This document shows, in pieces, positions 28,243 through 57,808 of a stretch of DNA of 64,000 nucleotides. Made by a program: the position numbers and the translations under genes. The stretch comes from Synergistaceae bacterium (GTDB lineage: Bacteria; Synergistota; Synergistia; Synergistales; Synergistaceae). How positions within the stretch are numbered: position 1 is the first letter of the stretch; each line of letters opens with the position of its first letter. The stretch lies in the NCBI GenBank assembly GCA_030533085.1, contig JAUNJZ010000008.1, positions 1 through 64,000 on the forward strand, written 5' to 3'. The notes beneath the pieces are model-generated. The model was not told where the DNA came from. It searched no databases and worked only from the letters and a program-made list of their open reading frames with translations.

Positions 28243-28488
28243 TCAGGGAATCAGATTATTCTCTTTCAGAACGGCTTCCAGCTCTCCGGGGTTGTAGCCG
28301 ACGATAAATTTATCGCCGATGGTCGTGACTGGAACGCCCATCTGCTTTGTCTTTTTCACAAGCTCCATCGCGGCGGCGCGGTCTGCTGAAACGTCAACCG
28401 TCGTGTAGGCTACCTTGAGCTTATCGAGATATTCCTTAACCTTCGTGCACCACGGGCAGGTCTGCGTCGTATATACTCTGACTTCCAT
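28243..28488 (-). CDS. glutaredoxin-like protein
   Basis: An 81-residue thioredoxin-fold protein with the CPWC active site (residues 11-14), the cis-Pro in GVPVTTIG and the GYNPGEL glutathione-side loop. It reduces disulfides, probably coupled to a thioredoxin-reductase-like partner because many anaerobes lack glutathione. It resembles the domain fused to the Cys-knuckle protein at 48412. The ribosome binding site is TAAGGAG. Confidence 0.9.
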   Translation of the reverse strand: MEVRVYTTQTCPWCTKVKEYLDKLKVAYTTVDVSADRAAAMELVKKTKQMGVPVTTIGDKFIVGYNPGELEAVLKENNLIP

Positions 28489-28770
28489 TTTATCTGACCA
28501 CTCCTTAAAAGTTATTTTAAAATTGTTTCACTTATGTTATTATAACCCATAAGCGGGAATTAGTCGCCTGCGCAAAAAGCAGATTTTTTCTACAGATTAC
28601 ACATACATCGGCCAGTACGTACCAATTAGTTAAAATTTCTTTTTTGGTTGGTTTATTCTTTTATGCTTGAGAACATTGCAATATTCGGCAAATTGAGTTA
28701 AATTTGTACCCGGTTTGTGTATATTGAAAATGTGTGGGATAAAATGCTTTAACTTTAGAGGAGGTACATC

Positions 28771-44522: not shown

Positions 44523-45372
44523 TCAATCAGGCACAAAGGTAGTCATATCGAATACTTTTATTGTCTTTCCACCGTTTACTTTGGTGGTCACCTTGGCCGT
44601 TCCAGTTTCCGTCTTCCCCGTCTCAGTGCTGTATCTTGTAACAGAGATAGTATCTCCCTTTTGCAGGTTGTCGATTTTCTGCGTTGACCAGCTTATCGTA
44701 TAGTTGTAGTTTCCGTTCTGTTTAACAAGGCTCGTTCTCTGTATCTGCCATGGATAACTGCTCATATCCAGCCCCGTTATCCTCGCTAGGTAATCCTTAA
44801 AATATTGTCCAAAATTAACACCTGTAGAATCCAGCGTCGCCTCTATATTGCCTGCCCGATTACCGGTATCAAAGTAGCTCGTTAAGTCCGTTACATGCAC
44901 ATTACCAGAATGTATATCAACAATATCCTCCTTATTCAGGAGGTTGCTCAGCTGAACAAACAGCGTGTCGTCCAGATTGTCGCTGTGCAGCGCGCAGGCG
45001 ACCGTGACTCTCGAACTATCCCGAATATCAGGCAGTGAAGCCGCAACAACGCCTTTTGCGGGACATATGTCGCTGATTGAATAGAATACAGGCGACGAAT
45101 ATATCTTTATTCCCCTGTTTTGTGCTTGAAGTACCTCGTCCATCAGAGATTCAAAATTTTTTGACGCTTCCGTACTGTGCCGGACATTGTATTCCCGCTG
45201 AAGTACCTTTCTGTTGTTAAGGCAGGCCGTCTCCTCCGCCTTATCAGTCGCGCTGCCGCTGGAAATCATCATCAATCCGGCCAGTATTCCTATCACTACT
45301 ATCGTTATCAGAACCTCCACGAGAGTGAAGGCATTAGTACCTGCCTGCCTGCCTGCCTGCCTGTATTCGCAT
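44523..45372 (-). CDS. prepilin-like protein with phase-variable 5' end (currently out of frame)
   Basis: A type IV prepilin/pseudopilin: NAFTLVEVLITIVVIGILAG is the methylation motif and hydrophobic helix, then a 240-residue globular part with several beta segments. The only good start, ATG 45370-45372, has GGAGGAAATATAT upstream and a TATAAT box at 45412-45417. After ATG-CGA-ATA come six CAGG units; in that frame translation ends after 12 codons (TAC-TAA). Five or eight units would join the leader to the pilin frame (leader about 13 residues). So at this repeat number the gene is off. Cleavage would be before Phe with Ala at -1, slightly off consensus. No other pilus gene is nearby. Confidence 0.75.
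45340..45363 (-). repeat. (CAGG)6 tetranucleotide tract inside the prepilin leader
   Basis: Six perfect tandem CAGG units on the coding strand (CCTG on the plus strand). Tetranucleotide tracts at the 5' end of surface-structure genes are a well-known phase-variation mechanism by slipped-strand mispairing. Gain or loss of one unit moves the frame. Confidence 0.85.
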
Positions 45373-45480
45373 ATATATTTCCTCCTTCCACACCCGACAC
45401 TACTATAGATTATTATATCAACAAAAACGATTGTTATCCAGATGTTATTTCTAACACGCGGCGGCGTTTCTCTTCCGCGC

Positions 45481-45517
45481 AAAAACAGCGCCTCTGCGTA
45501 CAAGGCGCTGTTTTTTT
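45481..45517 (-). terminator. terminator of ahpC
   Basis: AAAAACAGCGCCT (45481-45493) pairs with AGGCGCTGTTTTT (45502-45514), with T/A tracts on both sides. It follows the ahpC stop at 45543 on the minus strand. Confidence 0.85.
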
Positions 45518-45542: not shown

Positions 45543-46106
45543 CTATATTTTTCCTACAAGGCCGATGCCGGGCTGCAGCGTCTCTTTTCCAGGCGTCCAT
45601 TTGGCGGGGCAGACCTTATCTCCGTATTTCGCCACAAACTGTAAAGCCTGTACCTTGCGGAATAGTTCGTCAGCGTTGCGGCCGACGTTGCCGGCGTTGA
45701 CCTCGTAAGCGCAGATTTTGCCCTCGGGGTTGACGATGAAGGTTCCGCGCTCGGCAAGTCCCGCATCTTCTATCATCACTTCAAAGTCGCGCGCGAGCTG
45801 CCCGTTCGGATCCGCGAGCATCGGGAATTTTATCGCCTTGATGGTCTCCGAAGCATCCTGCCATGCCTTGTGGACAAAGTGCGTATCGCAGGATACGGAA
45901 TATATTTCGCAGCCGATCTTTTTGAACTCATCGTATTTATCTGCCAGATCTTTCAGCTCCGTGGGGCAGACGAAGGTGAAGTCCGCCGGGTAGAAGAAGA
46001 ATACAGACCATTTGCCGAGGATGTCGCCTTTTGATATATCCTTGAATTCATAATCGTGGTATGCCTTTGTCTTGAAATCGCTGACTTCTTTTCCTATAAG
46101 AGACAT
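45543..46106 (-). CDS. ahpC: alkyl hydroperoxide reductase subunit C (typical 2-Cys peroxiredoxin)
   Basis: A 187-residue AhpC-type peroxiredoxin reducing H2O2 and organic peroxides. The peroxidatic Cys is in FTFVCPTELKD (about residue 47) and the resolving Cys in GDKVCPAKW (about residue 166). Length and both motifs match the AhpC subgroup. No ahpF is adjacent, so the reductant is probably a thioredoxin- or glutaredoxin-like system. A consensus promoter and a palindrome lie in the leader. Confidence 0.95.
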   Translation of the reverse strand: MSLIGKEVSDFKTKAYHDYEFKDISKGDILGKWSVFFFYPADFTFVCPTELKDLADKYDEFKKIGCEIYSVSCDTHFVHKAWQDASETIKAIKFPMLADPNGQLARDFEVMIEDAGLAERGTFIVNPEGKICAYEVNAGNVGRNADELFRKVQALQFVAKYGDKVCPAKWTPGKETLQPGIGLVGKI

Positions 46107-46325: not shown

Positions 46326-47480
46326 TTAAAAGGCTTCTTTGTAAAGTGCGAGGATATCCTCTTTCGTCGCCTTGCGCGGGTTGCCCGGCGTGCATACGTC
46401 GGCAAAGGCCGATTCTGTAAGCGCTTCGAGGTCTTCTTCTTTTACGTTGAGCGCGGAGAGCTTCTGCGGGATGTTCACGTCGAGCGCAAGCTGGCGCACC
46501 GCGTCTACCGCCGCTCTGCGGTATTCGGCCGGGGTCATGCCGTCAACTCCCTTTACTCCGAATGCGCGCGCTATTTCGCGATATTTTTCTCCGCTGTATT
46601 CCGCGTTGTATTCCATTATGTAGGGCAGCAGCAGCGCGTTCGCCACTCCGTGCGGCATGTCGTAGAAGGCGCCCAGCGGGTGGGCCATTCCGTGTACGAG
46701 TCCGAGGCCGACATTTGAATAGGCCATGCCTGTCACGTACTGGCCGAGCGACATTTTTTCGCGCGCTTCGGGGCAGCCGTCGTGAACGGCGGCGCGCAGA
46801 TTTTCAGCTATGAGCTGTATGGATTTGAGGCTGAACATGTCGGCCAGCTCCCAGGCGCCGGGGGTGATGTAGCCCTCTATCGCGTGGGTCAGGGCGTCCA
46901 TGCCGGTCGCCGCCGCAAGTCCCTTTGGCATGGAGCTCATCATGTCGGAGTCCACTATGGCGATTTGCGGGATGTCGTGCGGGTCTACGCAGACAAATTT
47001 ACGTTTCTTCTCTTCGTCGGTGATGACGTAGTTGATTGTGGTTTCCGCCGCCGTTCCGGCTGTCGTCGGCACTGCGAAGATGGGCACTGCGGGATGTTTT
47101 GTCGGGGCGACGCCCTCAAGGGAACGAACGTCGGCAAATTCGGGGTTGTTTACGATGATGCCTGTTCCCTTGGCCGTGTCCATCGAAGAGCCGCCGCCTA
47201 TCGCTATCAAGTAGTCCGCTCCGGCCGCCTTGAATGCCGCTACGCAGTCCTGTACATTTTTTATCGTCGGATTCTGCTTCAGTCCGTCGAATACCTCGTA
47301 CGGGAGTCCCGCTTCTTCAAGGACGTCGAATACTTTTTTCGCCACGCCGAATTTGACGAGATCCTTGTCTGTTACTATAAGCGCCTTTTTGAATCCGCGG
47401 CGCGCGACTTCTTCGGGTATGCTTTTGATCGCTCCGGCTCCAAAGTAGGCAGTTCCATTCCATATCATGCGGTTTGCCAT
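46326..47480 (-). CDS. pduQ: iron-containing alcohol dehydrogenase (PduQ role)
   Basis: A 384-residue group III Fe-dependent alcohol dehydrogenase, similar to lactaldehyde reductase and 1,3-propanediol dehydrogenase. NAD-binding IAIGGGSSMDTAKG (about residues 92-105) and the metal-binding MDALTHAIEGY and VHGMAHPLGAFYDMPHG (about residues 261-278) are intact. As last gene of the operon it would reduce the aldehyde (propionaldehyde or 3-hydroxypropionaldehyde) to alcohol, regenerating NAD+ for PduP. It resembles FucO more than enteric PduQ. Starts 1 nt from the pduV stop. Confidence 0.92.
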   Translation of the reverse strand: MANRMIWNGTAYFGAGAIKSIPEEVARRGFKKALIVTDKDLVKFGVAKKVFDVLEEAGLPYEVFDGLKQNPTIKNVQDCVAAFKAAGADYLIAIGGGSSMDTAKGTGIIVNNPEFADVRSLEGVAPTKHPAVPIFAVPTTAGTAAETTINYVITDEEKKRKFVCVDPHDIPQIAIVDSDMMSSMPKGLAAATGMDALTHAIEGYITPGAWELADMFSLKSIQLIAENLRAAVHDGCPEAREKMSLGQYVTGMAYSNVGLGLVHGMAHPLGAFYDMPHGVANALLLPYIMEYNAEYSGEKYREIARAFGVKGVDGMTPAEYRRAAVDAVRQLALDVNIPQKLSALNVKEEDLEALTESAFADVCTPGNPRKATKEDILALYKEAF

Positions 47481-47481
47481 T

Positions 47482-48015
47482 TTATTTCTCTCCTTTTGCT
47501 GCGTTGTCGCGCAGCTCTCCGTATTTATCGGAGAGCACCTCTCGCGGCCTTTCGGCCTCTTCTTCCGTTTTCCACGGGAGTACGTCTCCCGGCTCTTTCA
47601 GGTAGTTCAGTATCTGCCACAGCCCCTCGCCGGTATATGAGCTGACGTGGAAGATGGGGCTGCATCCGGCCAGATCCAGCCAGTTGTGCGCCCTTTCGAC
47701 ATTCGCCCCTTTGTGGTCCGTCTGCGTCACTATCCCTATAACGGGACGGGTGCAGCTGGCTGTGACGCAGGGCGGGTAGAGGGAGTATTCTTCCGTCGCT
47801 GAAAGCAGCAATCCAACTACGTCAGCTTCATAGGTGTAAAGGGCGAGCGCTTTTGAAAGCGTGCTGTTTTCCGCGTACTCGCCCGGCGTGTCGATGATTA
47901 TGTCGTAGTGGTTGATGTACTGCGTCTTGTGATAGGCTATCGTACCGCCCCGGAGCGCCTGTATCAGCGTCGTCTTTCCACATTCGCTGCGCCCCATCAG
48001 GATTATCTTTTTCAT
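47482..48015 (-). CDS. pduV: PduV/EutP-family small GTPase-like protein
   Basis: A 177-residue P-loop protein: Walker A GRSECGKTTL (about residues 8-17) and DTPGEYAEN (about residue 43). The G4 position reads TQTDHK instead of the usual N/T-K-x-D, so nucleotide specificity may be relaxed. PduV associates with the outside of microcompartments and may affect their positioning. Its ATG overlaps the pduU stop by 4 nt. The C-terminal 35 residues are Glu/Arg-rich, an extension beyond the G domain. Confidence 0.88.
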   Translation of the reverse strand: MKKIILMGRSECGKTTLIQALRGGTIAYHKTQYINHYDIIIDTPGEYAENSTLSKALALYTYEADVVGLLLSATEEYSLYPPCVTASCTRPVIGIVTQTDHKGANVERAHNWLDLAGCSPIFHVSSYTGEGLWQILNYLKEPGDVLPWKTEEEAERPREVLSDKYGELRDNAAKGEK

Positions 48016-48411: not shown

Positions 48412-49140
48412 TCAGAGTCCCAGCGCCTTTTTGATTTCCGCTATTTCGGAGCCCATTATTTTGACGTCGCCTATCACGGTTACAGGAGCGCTGACGAAGC
48501 CGTTCGTCTCCATGAAGTGCTGGGCCTCTTTGCTGGTCGGTATGCTGATTGCCTCAAAGGGGACGCCGCGCGCCTTGAGGAAGTCCATCACCATCCGGCA
48601 GTGACCGCATTCCGGCATGGTGTAGACGCGCACTCCGGCTTTTTTTTCGGCCGCCTCGGCTTCGGCTTCCTCTTTCTTTATCGCCGCAACGTCGTAGAAG
48701 CACTGCGGGCATTCCTCCGGCTCTTTTTCCGGCTTGCTCTCGTAGAAGCACTGAGCGCAGTCGGAATCTTCGCCGGCTTTTTTGTCTTCCGCGTTCGGCT
48801 CATAGAAGCACTGCGGGCATTCTTCCGGCTCTTTTTCCGCCGCTGCTCCTCCGTAGAAGCACTGCGGGCAGCCATCTTCTTCCGTTTTTGCCGCCTCTTT
48901 CGCCGGCTCAGCCGCGCCTTCTTCTTCCTTCTTTATCGCGGCGACGTCGTAGAAGCACTGCGGACATTCCTCCGGTTCTTTTTCCGGCTTGCTCTCGTAG
49001 AAGCACTGAGCGCAGTCGGAATCTTCTCCGGCTTTTTTGTCTTCCGCGTTCGGCTCATAGAAGCACTGCGGACATTCTTCTTCTTCCTTCTTCTTTTTGT
49101 CGGAAGGTATGTAGTGACACTGCGGGCAATTTTCGGCCAT
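48412..49140 (-). CDS. novel microcompartment-operon protein: eight C-x-Q-C knuckles fused to a glutaredoxin-like domain
   Basis: A 242-residue protein with no family I can name. Residues 1-165 hold eight C-x-Q-C knuckles (CPQC six times, CAQC twice), seven followed by Phe-Tyr, joined by Glu/Lys-rich linkers of about 12-26 residues. Residues 168-242 are a glutaredoxin-like domain (VRVYTMPECGHCRMVMDFL, later SAPVTVIG). The ATG at 49140 has AAAGGAGG upstream. It lies between pduT and pduU, 15-20 nt from each, so it belongs to the operon. Two knuckles could make a rubredoxin-like Cys4 metal site, or they could form disulfides; both are inference. Knuckles 2-4 and 6-8 come from an internal duplication. 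Confidence 0.85.
   Translation of the reverse strand: MAENCPQCHYIPSDKKKKEEEECPQCFYEPNAEDKKAGEDSDCAQCFYESKPEKEPEECPQCFYDVAAIKKEEEGAAEPAKEAAKTEEDGCPQCFYGGAAAEKEPEECPQCFYEPNAEDKKAGEDSDCAQCFYESKPEKEPEECPQCFYDVAAIKKEEAEAEAAEKKAGVRVYTMPECGHCRMVMDFLKARGVPFEAISIPTSKEAQHFMETNGFVSAPVTVIGDVKIMGSEIAEIKKALGL
48676..48829 (-). repeat. internal tandem duplication, copy A (encodes knuckles 6-8)
   Basis: About 154 bp here match 48931-49084 at most positions, offset exactly 255 bp (85 codons), so the reading frame is preserved. Within each copy the encoded order is CPQC, CAQC, CPQC. High DNA identity points to a recent duplication. Confidence 0.8.
48931..49084 (-). repeat. internal tandem duplication, copy B (encodes knuckles 2-4)
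   Basis: Partner of the copy at 48676-48829. Differences are mostly at third codon positions (for example GCGGCG against GCCGCA in the Ala codons). Confidence 0.8.
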
Positions 49141-49154
49141 CAAAACGCCTCCTT

Positions 49155-49709
49155 TCAGTTCAGCAGCAGCTTTTCCACGAATCCGGGGTGCGGCGAGGGT
49201 ATTACGCAGCTGCCGGTTATCTCGCCGCTTTCTTTCAGCTGGCTGAGGCATGAGTTCATCGCGGATTTCACGGACGAAAGCTCGCCTGTGAATACGAGGA
49301 AGCCCTTGCCTCCCAGCCCTCTTGCTATCCTTATCTCCATCAGCCTGATGTTGGAGGCTTTCGCCGCTATGTCTCCGGCCATCACCGCCGTGAGCGCCGA
49401 TATCGTCTCTATCACGCCGATGGAGAGTATCTTCTCCACCTCCGAGGTTCCGGTGATCGCCGCGGGGATGGACTCGTGCACGTTGTTTATGATGTAGTCC
49501 GAAACTATGGACTCTCCCGCGGTCTGAAGGCCGCTTTCCATAGAGCTTTTTACCGCGCCGACGTTGCCGTAAACGGCTATCATATATTTTCCCGGACAGA
49601 TAGGGGTGGAGATGAGCGCCTTAACGTCCGCGGCCTTGAGCATCTCGTCCGTCGCCAGCATCCCCAGCGGAATGCTTTTTACCTCCAGCAGGCCAATTGA
49701 GTTTGCCAT
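49155..49709 (-). CDS. pduT: BMC-T shell protein PduT (Fe-S trimer)
   Basis: A 184-residue tandem-BMC protein (domain 1 about 1-90, domain 2 about 95-180). Cys38 in STPICPGKY is at the same residue number as the cluster-ligating Cys of Salmonella PduT, whose three copies hold a [4Fe-4S] cluster in the central pore. It probably passes electrons through the shell, with PduS as partner. RBS CGGGGCGG. PduS lies two genes upstream. Confidence 0.93.
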   Translation of the reverse strand: MANSIGLLEVKSIPLGMLATDEMLKAADVKALISTPICPGKYMIAVYGNVGAVKSSMESGLQTAGESIVSDYIINNVHESIPAAITGTSEVEKILSIGVIETISALTAVMAGDIAAKASNIRLMEIRIARGLGGKGFLVFTGELSSVKSAMNSCLSQLKESGEITGSCVIPSPHPGFVEKLLLN

Positions 49710-49725
49710 TAAAACCGCCCCGATT

Positions 49726-50625
49726 TTATTTGACTATCATCATTCTGATGATGCTCACCACTATGGTAAGGGTGAATATGGTGATCGCCGGCGGGTCAAT
49801 ATGCGAGTCGTTGTGGCTGTTGAAGGCGTTGCCCGCGAAATCTCCCAGAAGGCTGGCGAGTATCCCGATAACCACGCCGAGAGCCGCTCCGGCAGGCCCC
49901 CACGCCGCTATTCCGGTCAGCGCGCCGAGCGCCGAGGGGAGCGTGATGTGGTGCGTCGTCGGAACCGCAAAGCCCGTCTGCGCAAATATCAGGGTGATGG
50001 CGGAGAAGCCGAAGCAGATAACGGGGAAGGAACCAAGCGCGACATCCGATACGCCGGCGCTCTTCATCTGAGCCGCTACGAAGCTGACCGCTATACCTAC
50101 AACCGCTCCGAGCATGACGTTATAGCTGAAGCCGCTGCCGCCCGTGATCCAGACTCTCGGCCCCTTGCCGGTGTATTTTCCCAGCAGTCCGGTCTTTCCG
50201 AAGGTGAGGCGCGCTATGCAGCCGGATGCCGCGACTGTCATTGCTACAGCGTCGGTCATCGGGCCAAGCGGCGTCTTCATCAGAAGGGCGCAGATGATGT
50301 AACCCAATACTCCGAATATTCCTCCGACGATTATCACGTCAGCCTGACCAAGACCGTTCAGCGCGGTAACGATGTCGTTCCCTGCCTTGAGCGAACCTTT
50401 TTTACCGGCGTAGGCCGCCGCCGCGACTCCGCCGCCAAAGGCGATATGCGGCCCCATGAACGAGCCGAAGGCCAGGAAAGCAACGCCGATATCCGCTCCG
50501 CCGGCGGCGGAGATAAGCGCGCCTGCGAGCGCAAAGCACCCTGTCATGATAAAAGCAGGAAGAGCACCGAGAAGAGCGCCGAAAGCGCCGCCGCCAAAAG
50601 CCGCTACCAATGCAAACATATCCAT
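49726..50625 (-). CDS. integral membrane protein inside the pdu operon (putative permease)
   Basis: A 299-residue Gly/Ala-rich membrane protein with about eight to ten hydrophobic segments. A distinctive polar motif, FNSHNDSHIDPPA (about residues 262-274), lies before the last helix, and a GPHIAFGGG and TTHHITLPSA motif lie in loops. Proteins with a similar His/Asp motif occur in archaea and anaerobes as uncharacterised membrane proteins, from memory. Not related to PduF (aquaporin type). In the operon it may import the diol or export a product; this is inference. Confidence 0.7.
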   Translation of the reverse strand: MDMFALVAAFGGGAFGALLGALPAFIMTGCFALAGALISAAGGADIGVAFLAFGSFMGPHIAFGGGVAAAAYAGKKGSLKAGNDIVTALNGLGQADVIIVGGIFGVLGYIICALLMKTPLGPMTDAVAMTVAASGCIARLTFGKTGLLGKYTGKGPRVWITGGSGFSYNVMLGAVVGIAVSFVAAQMKSAGVSDVALGSFPVICFGFSAITLIFAQTGFAVPTTHHITLPSALGALTGIAAWGPAGAALGVVIGILASLLGDFAGNAFNSHNDSHIDPPAITIFTLTIVVSIIRMMIVK

Positions 50626-50649: not shown

Positions 50650-51987
50650 TTATTCTGTTGCTTTGCTGGTAATTATTATAACATTTTCTGTTACAAAAGT
50701 AACCCTTCCGCCTATCGAAGCGTGGAGGTTAGAGCCTAACTTTCCATCAGGGATTTTCGCTATCAGCTCCCCCCGCGCCACACAGTCGCCCGCCGCGACG
50801 ACCGGCACGGCCGGCGCGCCGGCCCCCTGCCGCAGCGGAAGCGCGACCTTTGAGAAGCGGTATTCTCCGCTCTCCATCGGCGCCGCCCTGTCGTACTCCG
50901 CGAGGCCGAGCTGACGCAGCAGTTTGCTCACCGGATAGAGCTTGTAATCGCGAAAGCTGCCGCAGCGCTCCGGCGTATCGCGCAGATTGTTTTTTACGCC
51001 GTTCTGCGTAAGCGTCTTTTTTATTGAAGCGTTGAATTTCCACGGCTGCAATCCCATGACGCAGGCATATTCGCAAAGGCGGCAGCCTACGCAGAGGTAT
51101 GCGTTCATCGGGCTTTGCTTCGCGTCGCAGACGCTTCCGTAGGCGGCGATGCGCATCATTTTGTGAGGCTCTATCCGGTGGCCGAGAAGATGTCTCGGGC
51201 AGACCTCCGTACAGAGCGAGCACTGCATACAGGCTATCGCCGCGTCGCGAATGCTTCTTTCGAGCGGTTTTTTCAGGCTTGTCAGCAGGCTGTGTCCGGA
51301 CGGCAGCACAATCAGCCCTTTTGTCGTCTTTGTGACGACGCTGTCCGGCGCGACGGTCATTCCCATCATCGGGCCGCCGTTTATCACCGCATAGTCCGCG
51401 ACCGTGGCTCCTCCGGCCAGCTCTATCGCCTCGCTCACAGTGATTCCGATCGGTACCTTTACGCTTTTAGGCGAACGCACCGCGCCGGTCACTGTGAGGT
51501 ATTTGTCTGTTACCGGAAGCCCTTCTTCGTATGCGGCGAGGATGTTCAGCGCCGTCTCGACATTTACGACTATAACCCCTACGTTCAGGGGTATTCCGCC
51601 CTCCGGGACTATGCGGCCTGCAGCCTCATAGACTACGACCTGTTCGTCTCCCGCCGGGTAAAAGCTTCCCAGTTCGCAGAGGGAGAGCGCGGGGTGCGCG
51701 GCAAGCTCGCCTCTGAGAGCGGCGGCGGCCTCATGGTAGTGCCTCTTGAGCGCGACCACTCCGCGCGACGCCCCAGCGCTCTCGACAATGAGGTCAAGAG
51801 CGCGCAGAAGTTTTCCGGCCTCTTTCTCCATCAGCTGTCTGTCCACGCGCAGCAGCGGCTCGCATTCCGCGCCGTTGATGATTACCGTTTCGGCCTGCGC
51901 CGCGAGCTTGACATGCGTCGGAAAGCCCGCGCCGCCTGCCCCAACTATCCCCGCCTCTGAAACTGACTTTATCAGCTTATCGTTCAT
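50650..51987 (-). CDS. pduS: cobalamin reductase PduS (RnfC-like flavo-Fe-S protein)
   Basis: A 445-residue RnfC-like protein: N-terminal FMN/NADH domain with VGAGGAGFPTHVK (residues about 16-28), an SLBB-like segment, and two [4Fe-4S] motifs, CMQCSLCTEVCP (about 257-268) and CVGCRLCEYAC (about 301-311), then a C-terminal barrel-sandwich region. It reduces cob(III)/cob(II)alamin for PduO, recycling damaged cofactor inside the compartment. Starts 13 nt after the pduP stop, with GAGGATG upstream. Confidence 0.93.
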   Translation of the reverse strand: MNDKLIKSVSEAGIVGAGGAGFPTHVKLAAQAETVIINGAECEPLLRVDRQLMEKEAGKLLRALDLIVESAGASRGVVALKRHYHEAAAALRGELAAHPALSLCELGSFYPAGDEQVVVYEAAGRIVPEGGIPLNVGVIVVNVETALNILAAYEEGLPVTDKYLTVTGAVRSPKSVKVPIGITVSEAIELAGGATVADYAVINGGPMMGMTVAPDSVVTKTTKGLIVLPSGHSLLTSLKKPLERSIRDAAIACMQCSLCTEVCPRHLLGHRIEPHKMMRIAAYGSVCDAKQSPMNAYLCVGCRLCEYACVMGLQPWKFNASIKKTLTQNGVKNNLRDTPERCGSFRDYKLYPVSKLLRQLGLAEYDRAAPMESGEYRFSKVALPLRQGAGAPAVPVVAAGDCVARGELIAKIPDGKLGSNLHASIGGRVTFVTENVIIITSKATE

Positions 51988-54690: not shown

Positions 54691-55491
54691 CTACACCTCT
54701 TTTTCTATGCTGACGCCGCGCTGTGACGCCGCGTCGCGCGCCAGCTGAGTTATAAGCGCATCTTTTGAAACTGTCAGCGCCGCTCCGGCCGGAAGTGATA
54801 TTATCTCTTTTCTTCCGATTACCTTTTTAGCGCAGCGAACCTTTTTCAGCGCCGCTGCGTCCGCCCCCTCTGAGGAGTGAAGGTCGGGCTGTATCAGCTT
54901 CACTGTCTTATAGGCCAGCGTGTTGCAGCCGGCTATTACCGCTCCGAAATCACGCAGCGCCTCCAGATTCGCAGTCAGCTTTGCCTTCAGCGCGGGGGTC
55001 ATCCTGTAGCCTTTGGCTATGCGCTCGGCGTTTTCCGGGCAGCAGCCGTCTCTGGCTATGACGACGTTTTTTCCGCGCATCATGGAGTTTGATATTATTC
55101 TGGAGGCGGGCGTATCCGCCATGCAGGCCGCGATTTTTGCTGCTGTGTTCACCGTCATGGCAGGGACGAGCAGCGTGTAATAGGGGGCGGCGAGAAGCTC
55201 GGGGGCTATTTCCAGAGTCTCTTCCTGATAGAAGCGCTCAGGCTCGAGCGCCTTGCGCAGCGTATCGACGTCAAGCAGCTTCCGTGCGCTTTTCGAGAGA
55301 AAGAGGTCAAAGGCGAAGCCCGCCTGCCTGAGCTGCTGCAGGCTGACAAGAGACGGCACGAAGCCTATCAGCGAGCCTGTGTAGACGACCAGCGCCTTTT
55401 TCTGCACGCTGATTAACTTCTCTTCCACGCGGCGAACGATCTCGGCGACGAGAGCATCTTCTGACATTCCGGCTATTGTTTCCTCTCTCAC
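54691..55491 (-). CDS. flavoprotein (PF02441-like) at the pduM position
   Basis: A 266-residue protein starting at GTG. The region [17 protein letters not shown] then [16 protein letters not shown] and [20 protein letters not shown], with later [20 protein letters not shown], fits the flavoprotein family that includes UbiX/Dfp-like FMN binders. It stands where enteric operons carry pduM. I do not see PduM similarity. It may be a redox protein supporting the reactivase or cobalamin recycling; substrate unknown. Confidence 0.65.
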
Positions 55492-57295: not shown

Positions 57296-57808
57296 TTAAC
57301 GCTTTTTGGGCGTTTTTTTCGCTTTGGGCTGAGGCGCGCTTTTCTCCTCAATGACTTCTGCTTTTTTCTCTTCGGTCTCCGGAGCTTCCGTCGTCGGCCT
57401 TTCTTCCGTCATCAGCGGCTCCTCAGCTGCTTCCGGCGCGTCCGCAGCCGGCCTGTCTTCCGCCGTCGGCGGCTCCTCGGCGACTTCCGGCGCTTCCTTC
57501 TTTTCAGGGGCCGCTGCGCCTACCGTATCGGCATTGCGCACCATCGCTTCAAGACAGGAGGCGGGGCGCGCTATCACGCGGGTGCTTACGACCCTGCCGA
57601 CCTTGGCGGCCGCGCTTCTGGCCGCGGAAACGGCGGCTGTTACCGCGCCGACCTCTCCTTCGACCTTGACGGTCGTCATTCCGCCGCCTTTCGCAAGCTC
57701 ATAGCCGGCGAGCGTCACATTCGCGGATTTGACCGCCGCGTCGGCGGCCTCTACCGCCGCCACAAGTCCGACGGTCTCTATCAGCCCTAAACTTTTCAGC
57801 TGTGCCAT
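57296..57808 (-). CDS. pduK: BMC shell protein with long Glu/Pro/Ala-rich tail (PduK-like)
   Basis: A 170-residue protein. Residues 1-93 are one BMC domain (LGLIETVGLVAAVEAADAAV, GAVTAAVSAARSAAAKVGRV). The remaining 77 residues are disordered and repetitive: units like EEP-x-x-x-E-x-RP-x-x-x-APE occur about three times, followed by a basic end (KAKKTPKKR). Enteric PduK has a C-terminal extension with Cys for an Fe-S cluster; here the extension has none, and the only Cys is ASCLEAM in the linker. The tail may bind cargo or neighbouring shells. Confidence 0.8.
   Translation of the reverse strand: MAQLKSLGLIETVGLVAAVEAADAAVKSANVTLAGYELAKGGGMTTVKVEGEVGAVTAAVSAARSAAAKVGRVVSTRVIARPASCLEAMVRNADTVGAAAPEKKEAPEVAEEPPTAEDRPAADAPEAAEEPLMTEERPTTEAPETEEKKAEVIEEKSAPQPKAKKTPKKR

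Follow-up and report, generated by a model that had tools for sequence, protein, structure and literature searches.

A 242-residue protein encoded in the pdu operon of the DNA analysed here (the window, 64,000 nucleotides) joins a tail of cysteine knuckles to a glutaredoxin-like domain, and it would most simply be read as part of a thiol-peroxidase module of the organelle. In the preferred reading, to which we give a probability of roughly 0.45, the protein would hold such a module at the Pdu organelle, serving as a disordered tether and dithiol platform that responds to redox state. The window gene would then encode the organelle-attached part of a thiol and peroxide protection module in one lineage of Pdu microcompartments. 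The pairing of the knuckle with a peroxiredoxin–glutaredoxin fusion in related loci suggests that a Pdu organelle may have a unit of its own for thiol and peroxide protection. A broader and more tentative proposal is that this is an undescribed antioxidant arm of the Pdu microcompartment, in which a new family of disordered, redox-switchable tethers, analogous but not related to CsoS2, docks a dedicated peroxiredoxin–redoxin system.

The knuckle-glutaredoxin gene and its operon

The following features of the window are discussed, all on the minus strand.

48412..49140, minus: knuckle-glutaredoxin fusion gene, 242 aa, stop included (open reading frame, family searches, orthologues)
48640..49140, minus: knuckle region, residues 1–167, eight CxQC(F/H)Y motifs, E/K-rich linkers
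48415..48639, minus: glutaredoxin-like domain, residues 168–242, CGHC active site (closest curated model: YruB type, score under the cut-off)
48922..49080, minus: copy 1 of a 53-residue internal duplication, residues 21–73 (comparison with copy 2)
48667..48825, minus: copy 2 of this duplication, residues 106–158 (comparison with copy 1)
49155..49709, minus: pduT, BMC-T shell protein, pore motif ICPGKY (family searches; motif after PMC6325248)
48012..48401, minus: pduU, BMC shell protein (family searches)
47482..48015, minus: pduV, PduV/EutP GTPase family (family searches)
46326..47480, minus: pduQ-like iron alcohol dehydrogenase, lactaldehyde reductase model (family searches)
45543..46106, minus: AhpC peroxiredoxin, candidate glutaredoxin client, 219 nt past pduQ (family searches)
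49726..50625, minus: membrane protein, 299 aa, between pduS and pduT (family searches, locus comparison)
50650..51987, minus: pduS, flavin/4Fe-4S protein (family searches)

The coding sequence (48415–49140; stop codon 48412–48414) is preceded by AAAGGAGG, which reads as a ribosome-binding-like site, and is separated by 14 nt from pduT (stop 49155) and by 10 nt from pduU (start 48401). The original prediction, which named no strand, had placed the gene between pduT and pduU with gaps below 20 nt and had described eight C-x-Q-C knuckles, seven of them with FY, ahead of a C-terminal CGHC domain in a 242-residue chain. Translation and position confirm both descriptions, the remaining one of the eight knuckles carrying HY. 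This is the first in the chain (CPQCHY), and the other seven read CPQCFY or CAQCFY. The knuckles start at residues 5, 23, 43, 59, 91, 108, 128, and 144 and span residues 5–147, with the redoxin following at the C-terminus. All 18 cysteines lie inside a CxxC, and C178-G-H-C181 holds the sole non-knuckle pair. Residues 1–167 consist of 22% E, 14% A, 13% K, and 9% P, these four residues dominating the linkers.

The two 53-residue copies are identical in amino acid sequence, and the 8 of 159 nucleotides that differ between them are all in third positions, which identifies the eight knuckles as the product of a late internal duplication that had not been recognised in the original prediction. The dN/dS of the knuckle gene is 0.06–0.22 in seven Oscillospiraceae pairs; for the window gene against that of G015, a genome of the host's family, dS is saturated. 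The low dN/dS, the third-position-only differences between the copies, and the orthologues in 12 other genomes, each in the same place in the operon, argue that the gene is not a chance pattern.

The operon runs pduB-C-D-E-G-H, two BMC shell genes, pduL, a eutJ-like gene, a pduM-like gene, pduN, O, P, S, the membrane protein gene, pduT, the knuckle-glutaredoxin gene, pduU, V, and Q. Family searches covered ten of these genes; the others are presumably as labelled, being named by their order and from general knowledge of pdu operons. The membrane protein matched no Pfam or NCBIfam family and has an AlphaFold pLDDT of 37. Its gene separates pduS from pduT at all 13 loci (the proteins being about 59–81% identical), and distant relatives (25–43%) are encoded at other places in the host phylum, away from operons of this kind. 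The PduM-like protein (54691–55491, minus, 266 aa) exceeds the PduM models of roughly 160 residues in size; its N-terminus matches a flavoprotein domain (PF02441, E 1.3e-9), and its C-terminal part resembles PduM (PF15953, TIGR02536). In addition, a BMC shell protein (57296–57808, minus) carries a long low-complexity C-terminal extension rich in E, P, and A, and a type IV pilin-like protein (44523–45503, minus), with FTLVEVLITIVVIGILAGLM close to its N-terminus, is encoded between glutamine synthetase and AhpC, an order kept in G015.

Homologues, the redoxin family and the peroxiredoxin partner

Orthologues were found in 12 further genomes, one from a different genus of the host's family (G015) and 11 from Oscillospiraceae, including Flavonifractor plautii. 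A pattern-based scan of 84,980 species genomes, which detects close relatives only, returned four Oscillospiraceae loci. With a knuckle profile, 2 of 188 host-phylum genomes and 11 of 400 genomes of the Flavonifractor family gave matches, while 391 sampled genomes of the class of Flavonifractor yielded only Flavonifractor itself and one false match (G717), a weak hit to a small rubredoxin-like knuckle that was rejected as an orthologue. No knuckle homologue was found in the plasmid and phage collections. At all 13 true loci, the knuckle gene directly follows pduT within the same pdu gene order, as far as the contig or fetched stretch extends (L006 stops inside the partner gene described below, and the G015 stretch begins at pduO). 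The protein had been proposed to be an uncharacterised member of such an operon, with the confinement of its homologues to BMC loci as the check; every true homologue found indeed resides in a pdu operon.

In the 11 Oscillospiraceae loci, the knuckle gene stands alone (about 65–90 codons), and the next gene, about 270 codons long, encodes an AhpC/TSA peroxiredoxin fused to a glutaredoxin domain. When 400 Oscillospiraceae genomes were searched for this protein, two-domain matches occurred in exactly the 11 knuckle-bearing genomes, at those loci, and the remaining 21 matches covered the peroxiredoxin part only. In one locus (L003, 9058–9945, plus), a tandem pair of pduU-like genes lies behind the fusion gene. 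It counts against the preferred reading that in the window's own lineage the peroxiredoxin is neither fused nor adjacent, AhpC lying beyond pduQ. Gene order in G015 is otherwise as in the window, except that a divergent gene separates pduQ from AhpC, which weakens the link to the window AhpC.

The redoxin domain matches Pfam PF00462 glutaredoxin over residues 170–226 (38.4 bits against a gathering cut-off of 22.9), with the CxxC active site present, and matches in the PDB support the glutaredoxin fold, so that the redox-related character proposed for the protein holds. The best NCBIfam model is TIGR02196 YruB, at 49.5 bits against a curated cut-off of 88.55; YruB/Cp9 is thus the nearest curated family by score, of which the domain is not a member by the cut-off rule, a further point against the preferred reading. 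The Foldseek search with the redoxin model retrieved NrdH-type and BC3987-type redoxins (4hs1, 1h75, 3zit); the hybrid Prx5 of Haemophilus (1nm3) ranked below them. In a tree of the redoxins of the 13 loci and 19 ordinary redoxins from the host's relatives, in which non-BMC Oscillospiraceae redoxins are absent, a branch with 100/99 support set the operon redoxins apart from the others. The grouping of both glutaredoxin types suggests one common redoxin, which one lineage carries on the tail and the other on the peroxiredoxin. Active sites among the operon redoxins read CGHC, CGFC, or CSYC. A selenoprotein redoxin was considered and rejected, the 'UXX-star' models giving weak matches only and the active site holding two plain cysteines. 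The host's ordinary CPWC redoxin (28273–28491, minus, in the window; L002) groups apart from the operon redoxin in the tree.

By gene-fusion logic, the knuckle-glutaredoxin of the host family and the peroxiredoxin-glutaredoxin of Oscillospiraceae together point to thiol and peroxide chemistry. It is reported that Cp9, a YruB-type redoxin of Clostridium pasteurianum, passes electrons from thioredoxin reductase to peroxiredoxin (PMC3720550). As for this related redoxin, the likely client of the operon redoxin is a peroxiredoxin, given the fusion to the same glutaredoxin and its exact co-occurrence with the knuckle. All five carrier genomes examined gave thioredoxin reductase matches, over the cut-off in four, the gene lying elsewhere in the genome and not at the locus; the glutamate-cysteine ligase family PF04262 was not found in these five genomes. 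The redoxin may be recharged via thioredoxin reductase, not glutathione, and may reduce the peroxiredoxin and perhaps oxidised cargo thiols too. Sensitivity to oxygen or peroxide is a property of the B12-dependent diol dehydratase, of Fe-S proteins, and of iron alcohol dehydrogenases, and such enzymes of the organelle would thereby be shielded. With their invariant tyrosine, the repeats could tether the protein multivalently to shell or cargo, and their cysteine pairs may exchange disulphides with the redoxin, or their redox state may tune the tether.

Conservation of the repeat tail and competing explanations

The number of knuckles is three in nine loci, four in three loci (including G015), and eight in the window. 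Both cysteines and the following tyrosine are invariant in all 46 counted knuckles, a count that leaves out the first knuckle of locus L005, present in the sequence. At the third motif position, 36 of them have Q and 10 have N, and the residue before the tyrosine is F in 32, H in 13, and Y in one. Ten loci have one repeat that lacks both cysteines yet keeps Tyr-His (e.g., VPQSPYHAPE, APGSLYHPSN), with tyrosine present in all ten. Tyrosine is the most constant residue of the tail, retained even where both cysteines are lost. In the AlphaFold2 model, built on a shallow alignment, the redoxin reaches a pLDDT of about 90, and residues 1–141, which stay below 50, are predicted to be disordered. Neither the window knuckle region nor its stand-alone relatives matched a Pfam or NCBIfam family above cut-off, and no encapsulation peptide was recognised by eye, which speaks against the preferred reading. 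The disordered repeats of CsoS2, which contain cysteine pairs and an essential tyrosine, bind the shell; tyrosine mutants lose growth while cysteine mutants do not, and shell mobility changes with the redox state (PMC11365436). Retention of the tyrosine in the cysteine-less repeats fits a CsoS2-like role of the tail.

The strongest competitor, which we still consider unlikely, is a metal scaffold, in which paired CxxC knuckles would serve as half zinc-ribbons for Zn or Fe, be it as a metal store, to shape the tail, or to cross-link molecules at the shell, while the redoxin keeps the thiols reduced. The CPxC knuckles do look like zinc-ribbon halves, every cysteine sits in a CxxC pair, and one Oscillospiraceae protein gave a sub-threshold zinc-ribbon match (PF12773 DZR, E 0.0034). 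However, no zinc-ribbon Pfam match exceeded its cut-off and the number of half-sites is not regularly even: with three knuckles, 9 of the 13 proteins would leave one unpaired within a monomer. The second cysteine also lacks the following glycine of typical rubredoxin-type knuckles, and the odd knuckle numbers together with the tyrosine kept in the cysteine-less repeats of ten loci argue against a pure metal scaffold. This part of the original interpretation is weakened, its assignment to a redox-linked Pdu component stands, and the peroxiredoxin partner had not been foreseen. A multihaem cytochrome c was rejected on Pfam scores below cut-off; CxxCH occurs in 13 of the 46 counted motifs, chiefly the first of each protein.

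Less probable again is a purely structural scaffold, with CsoS2-like disordered repeats gathering shell and cargo, the redoxin only keeping the cysteines reduced, and no peroxide role. Disorder, the varying repeat number (3, 4, 8), the invariant tyrosine, the conserved cysteine pairs, and the CsoS2 precedent are all in keeping with it, but in 11 of 11 Oscillospiraceae loci the adjacent gene joins this redoxin to a peroxiredoxin, and the protein is absent from most of the PduT-bearing genomes searched.

The latter point also bears on PduT itself. PduT-like genes occur in 67 of the 188 host-phylum genomes, against 2 with the knuckle, and a role as general PduT partner was therefore discarded. 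Among 165 genomes of the Flavonifractor family, 23 have PduT-like genes; those of five knuckle carriers are 65–71% identical to the PduT of the window, those of the other 18 genomes at most 43%. The knuckle is tied to one pdu operon lineage common to distant groups and not to PduT in general, and this lineage has probably spread between them by transfer. The host genome has a second PduT-like gene without a knuckle gene (G000, contig C75:51381–51917). The conserved pore cysteine of PduT sits in a C-P/S/A-G-K/R/S-Y/F motif (PMC6325248). A suggestion that the window PduT lacks the Fe-S cysteine (Ala at 108, Cys in 3n79) was withdrawn, its pore motif being ICPGKY according to the same source.

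The originally proposed electron relay linking PduS/PduT with the lumen is improbable: the gene order pduS, membrane protein, pduT, knuckle and the pore cysteine motif of PduT would suit it, but apart from the redoxin the protein has no redox cofactor-binding domain, and the knuckle is missing where PduT is of the other type. That the gene is a redox passenger moved along in a transferred operon, with no organelle function, is very improbable, since its patchy occurrence in two distant lineages suggests operon transfer but purifying selection, a position fixed across distant lineages, and synonymous-only change between the internal copies speak against it.

Significance and comparison with known systems

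The thiol-peroxidase reading touches the question of how radical and Fe-S enzymes, which are oxygen-sensitive, are protected in catabolic microcompartments, and of whether these organelles possess a thiol redox system of their own. The knuckle and peroxiredoxin-glutaredoxin gene pair forms a defined module in the culturable gut species Flavonifractor plautii, where this question is testable. If true, it would be a second independent case of disordered Cys/Tyr repeats in a bacterial organelle, and the tail might serve as a tag to bring redox enzymes to engineered shells.

The main text of two BMC surveys (PMC8217296, PMC4207490) and that of PMC6620236 do not name glutaredoxin, thioredoxin, or peroxiredoxin. 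Judged by title and abstract, none of the papers retrieved on microcompartments with glutaredoxin, peroxiredoxin, or AhpC describes such a component; a table entry 'glutaredoxin' is possible. The Pdu microcompartment as a kind is known; what we would call new is the thiol-redox arm, not described before, and the repeat family of the tail.

Among known operon members, PduS and PduT are likewise redox-related but act through flavin and Fe-S chemistry, not thiols. Double zinc ribbons and rubredoxin-type knuckles share the CPxC half-sites; the tail differs from them in having FY in place of G after the second cysteine, an odd number of knuckles in most members, and no match above cut-off. Cp9/YruB (TIGR02196) of Clostridium pasteurianum shares the redoxin fold and is the nearest curated family, whereas the operon redoxin resides in a microcompartment operon, is fused to a knuckle tail in the window protein, and scores below the curated cut-off. 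The Haemophilus influenzae hybrid (1nm3) resembles the Oscillospiraceae partner in carrying peroxiredoxin and glutaredoxin in one chain, but it is Prx5-type while the Oscillospiraceae fusion is AhpC-type; the hybrid is not known to have a knuckle protein or a microcompartment context. The closest parallel to the tail is CsoS2, the alpha-carboxysome scaffold, with which it shares disordered repeats, conserved cysteine pairs and tyrosine, and a microcompartment setting; shell binding is known for CsoS2, and the tail was compared with it in disorder and in Tyr/Cys conservation. CsoS2 is far longer, its VTG motifs are missing from the tail, the tail is tied to a redoxin, and no sequence kinship between the two is claimed.
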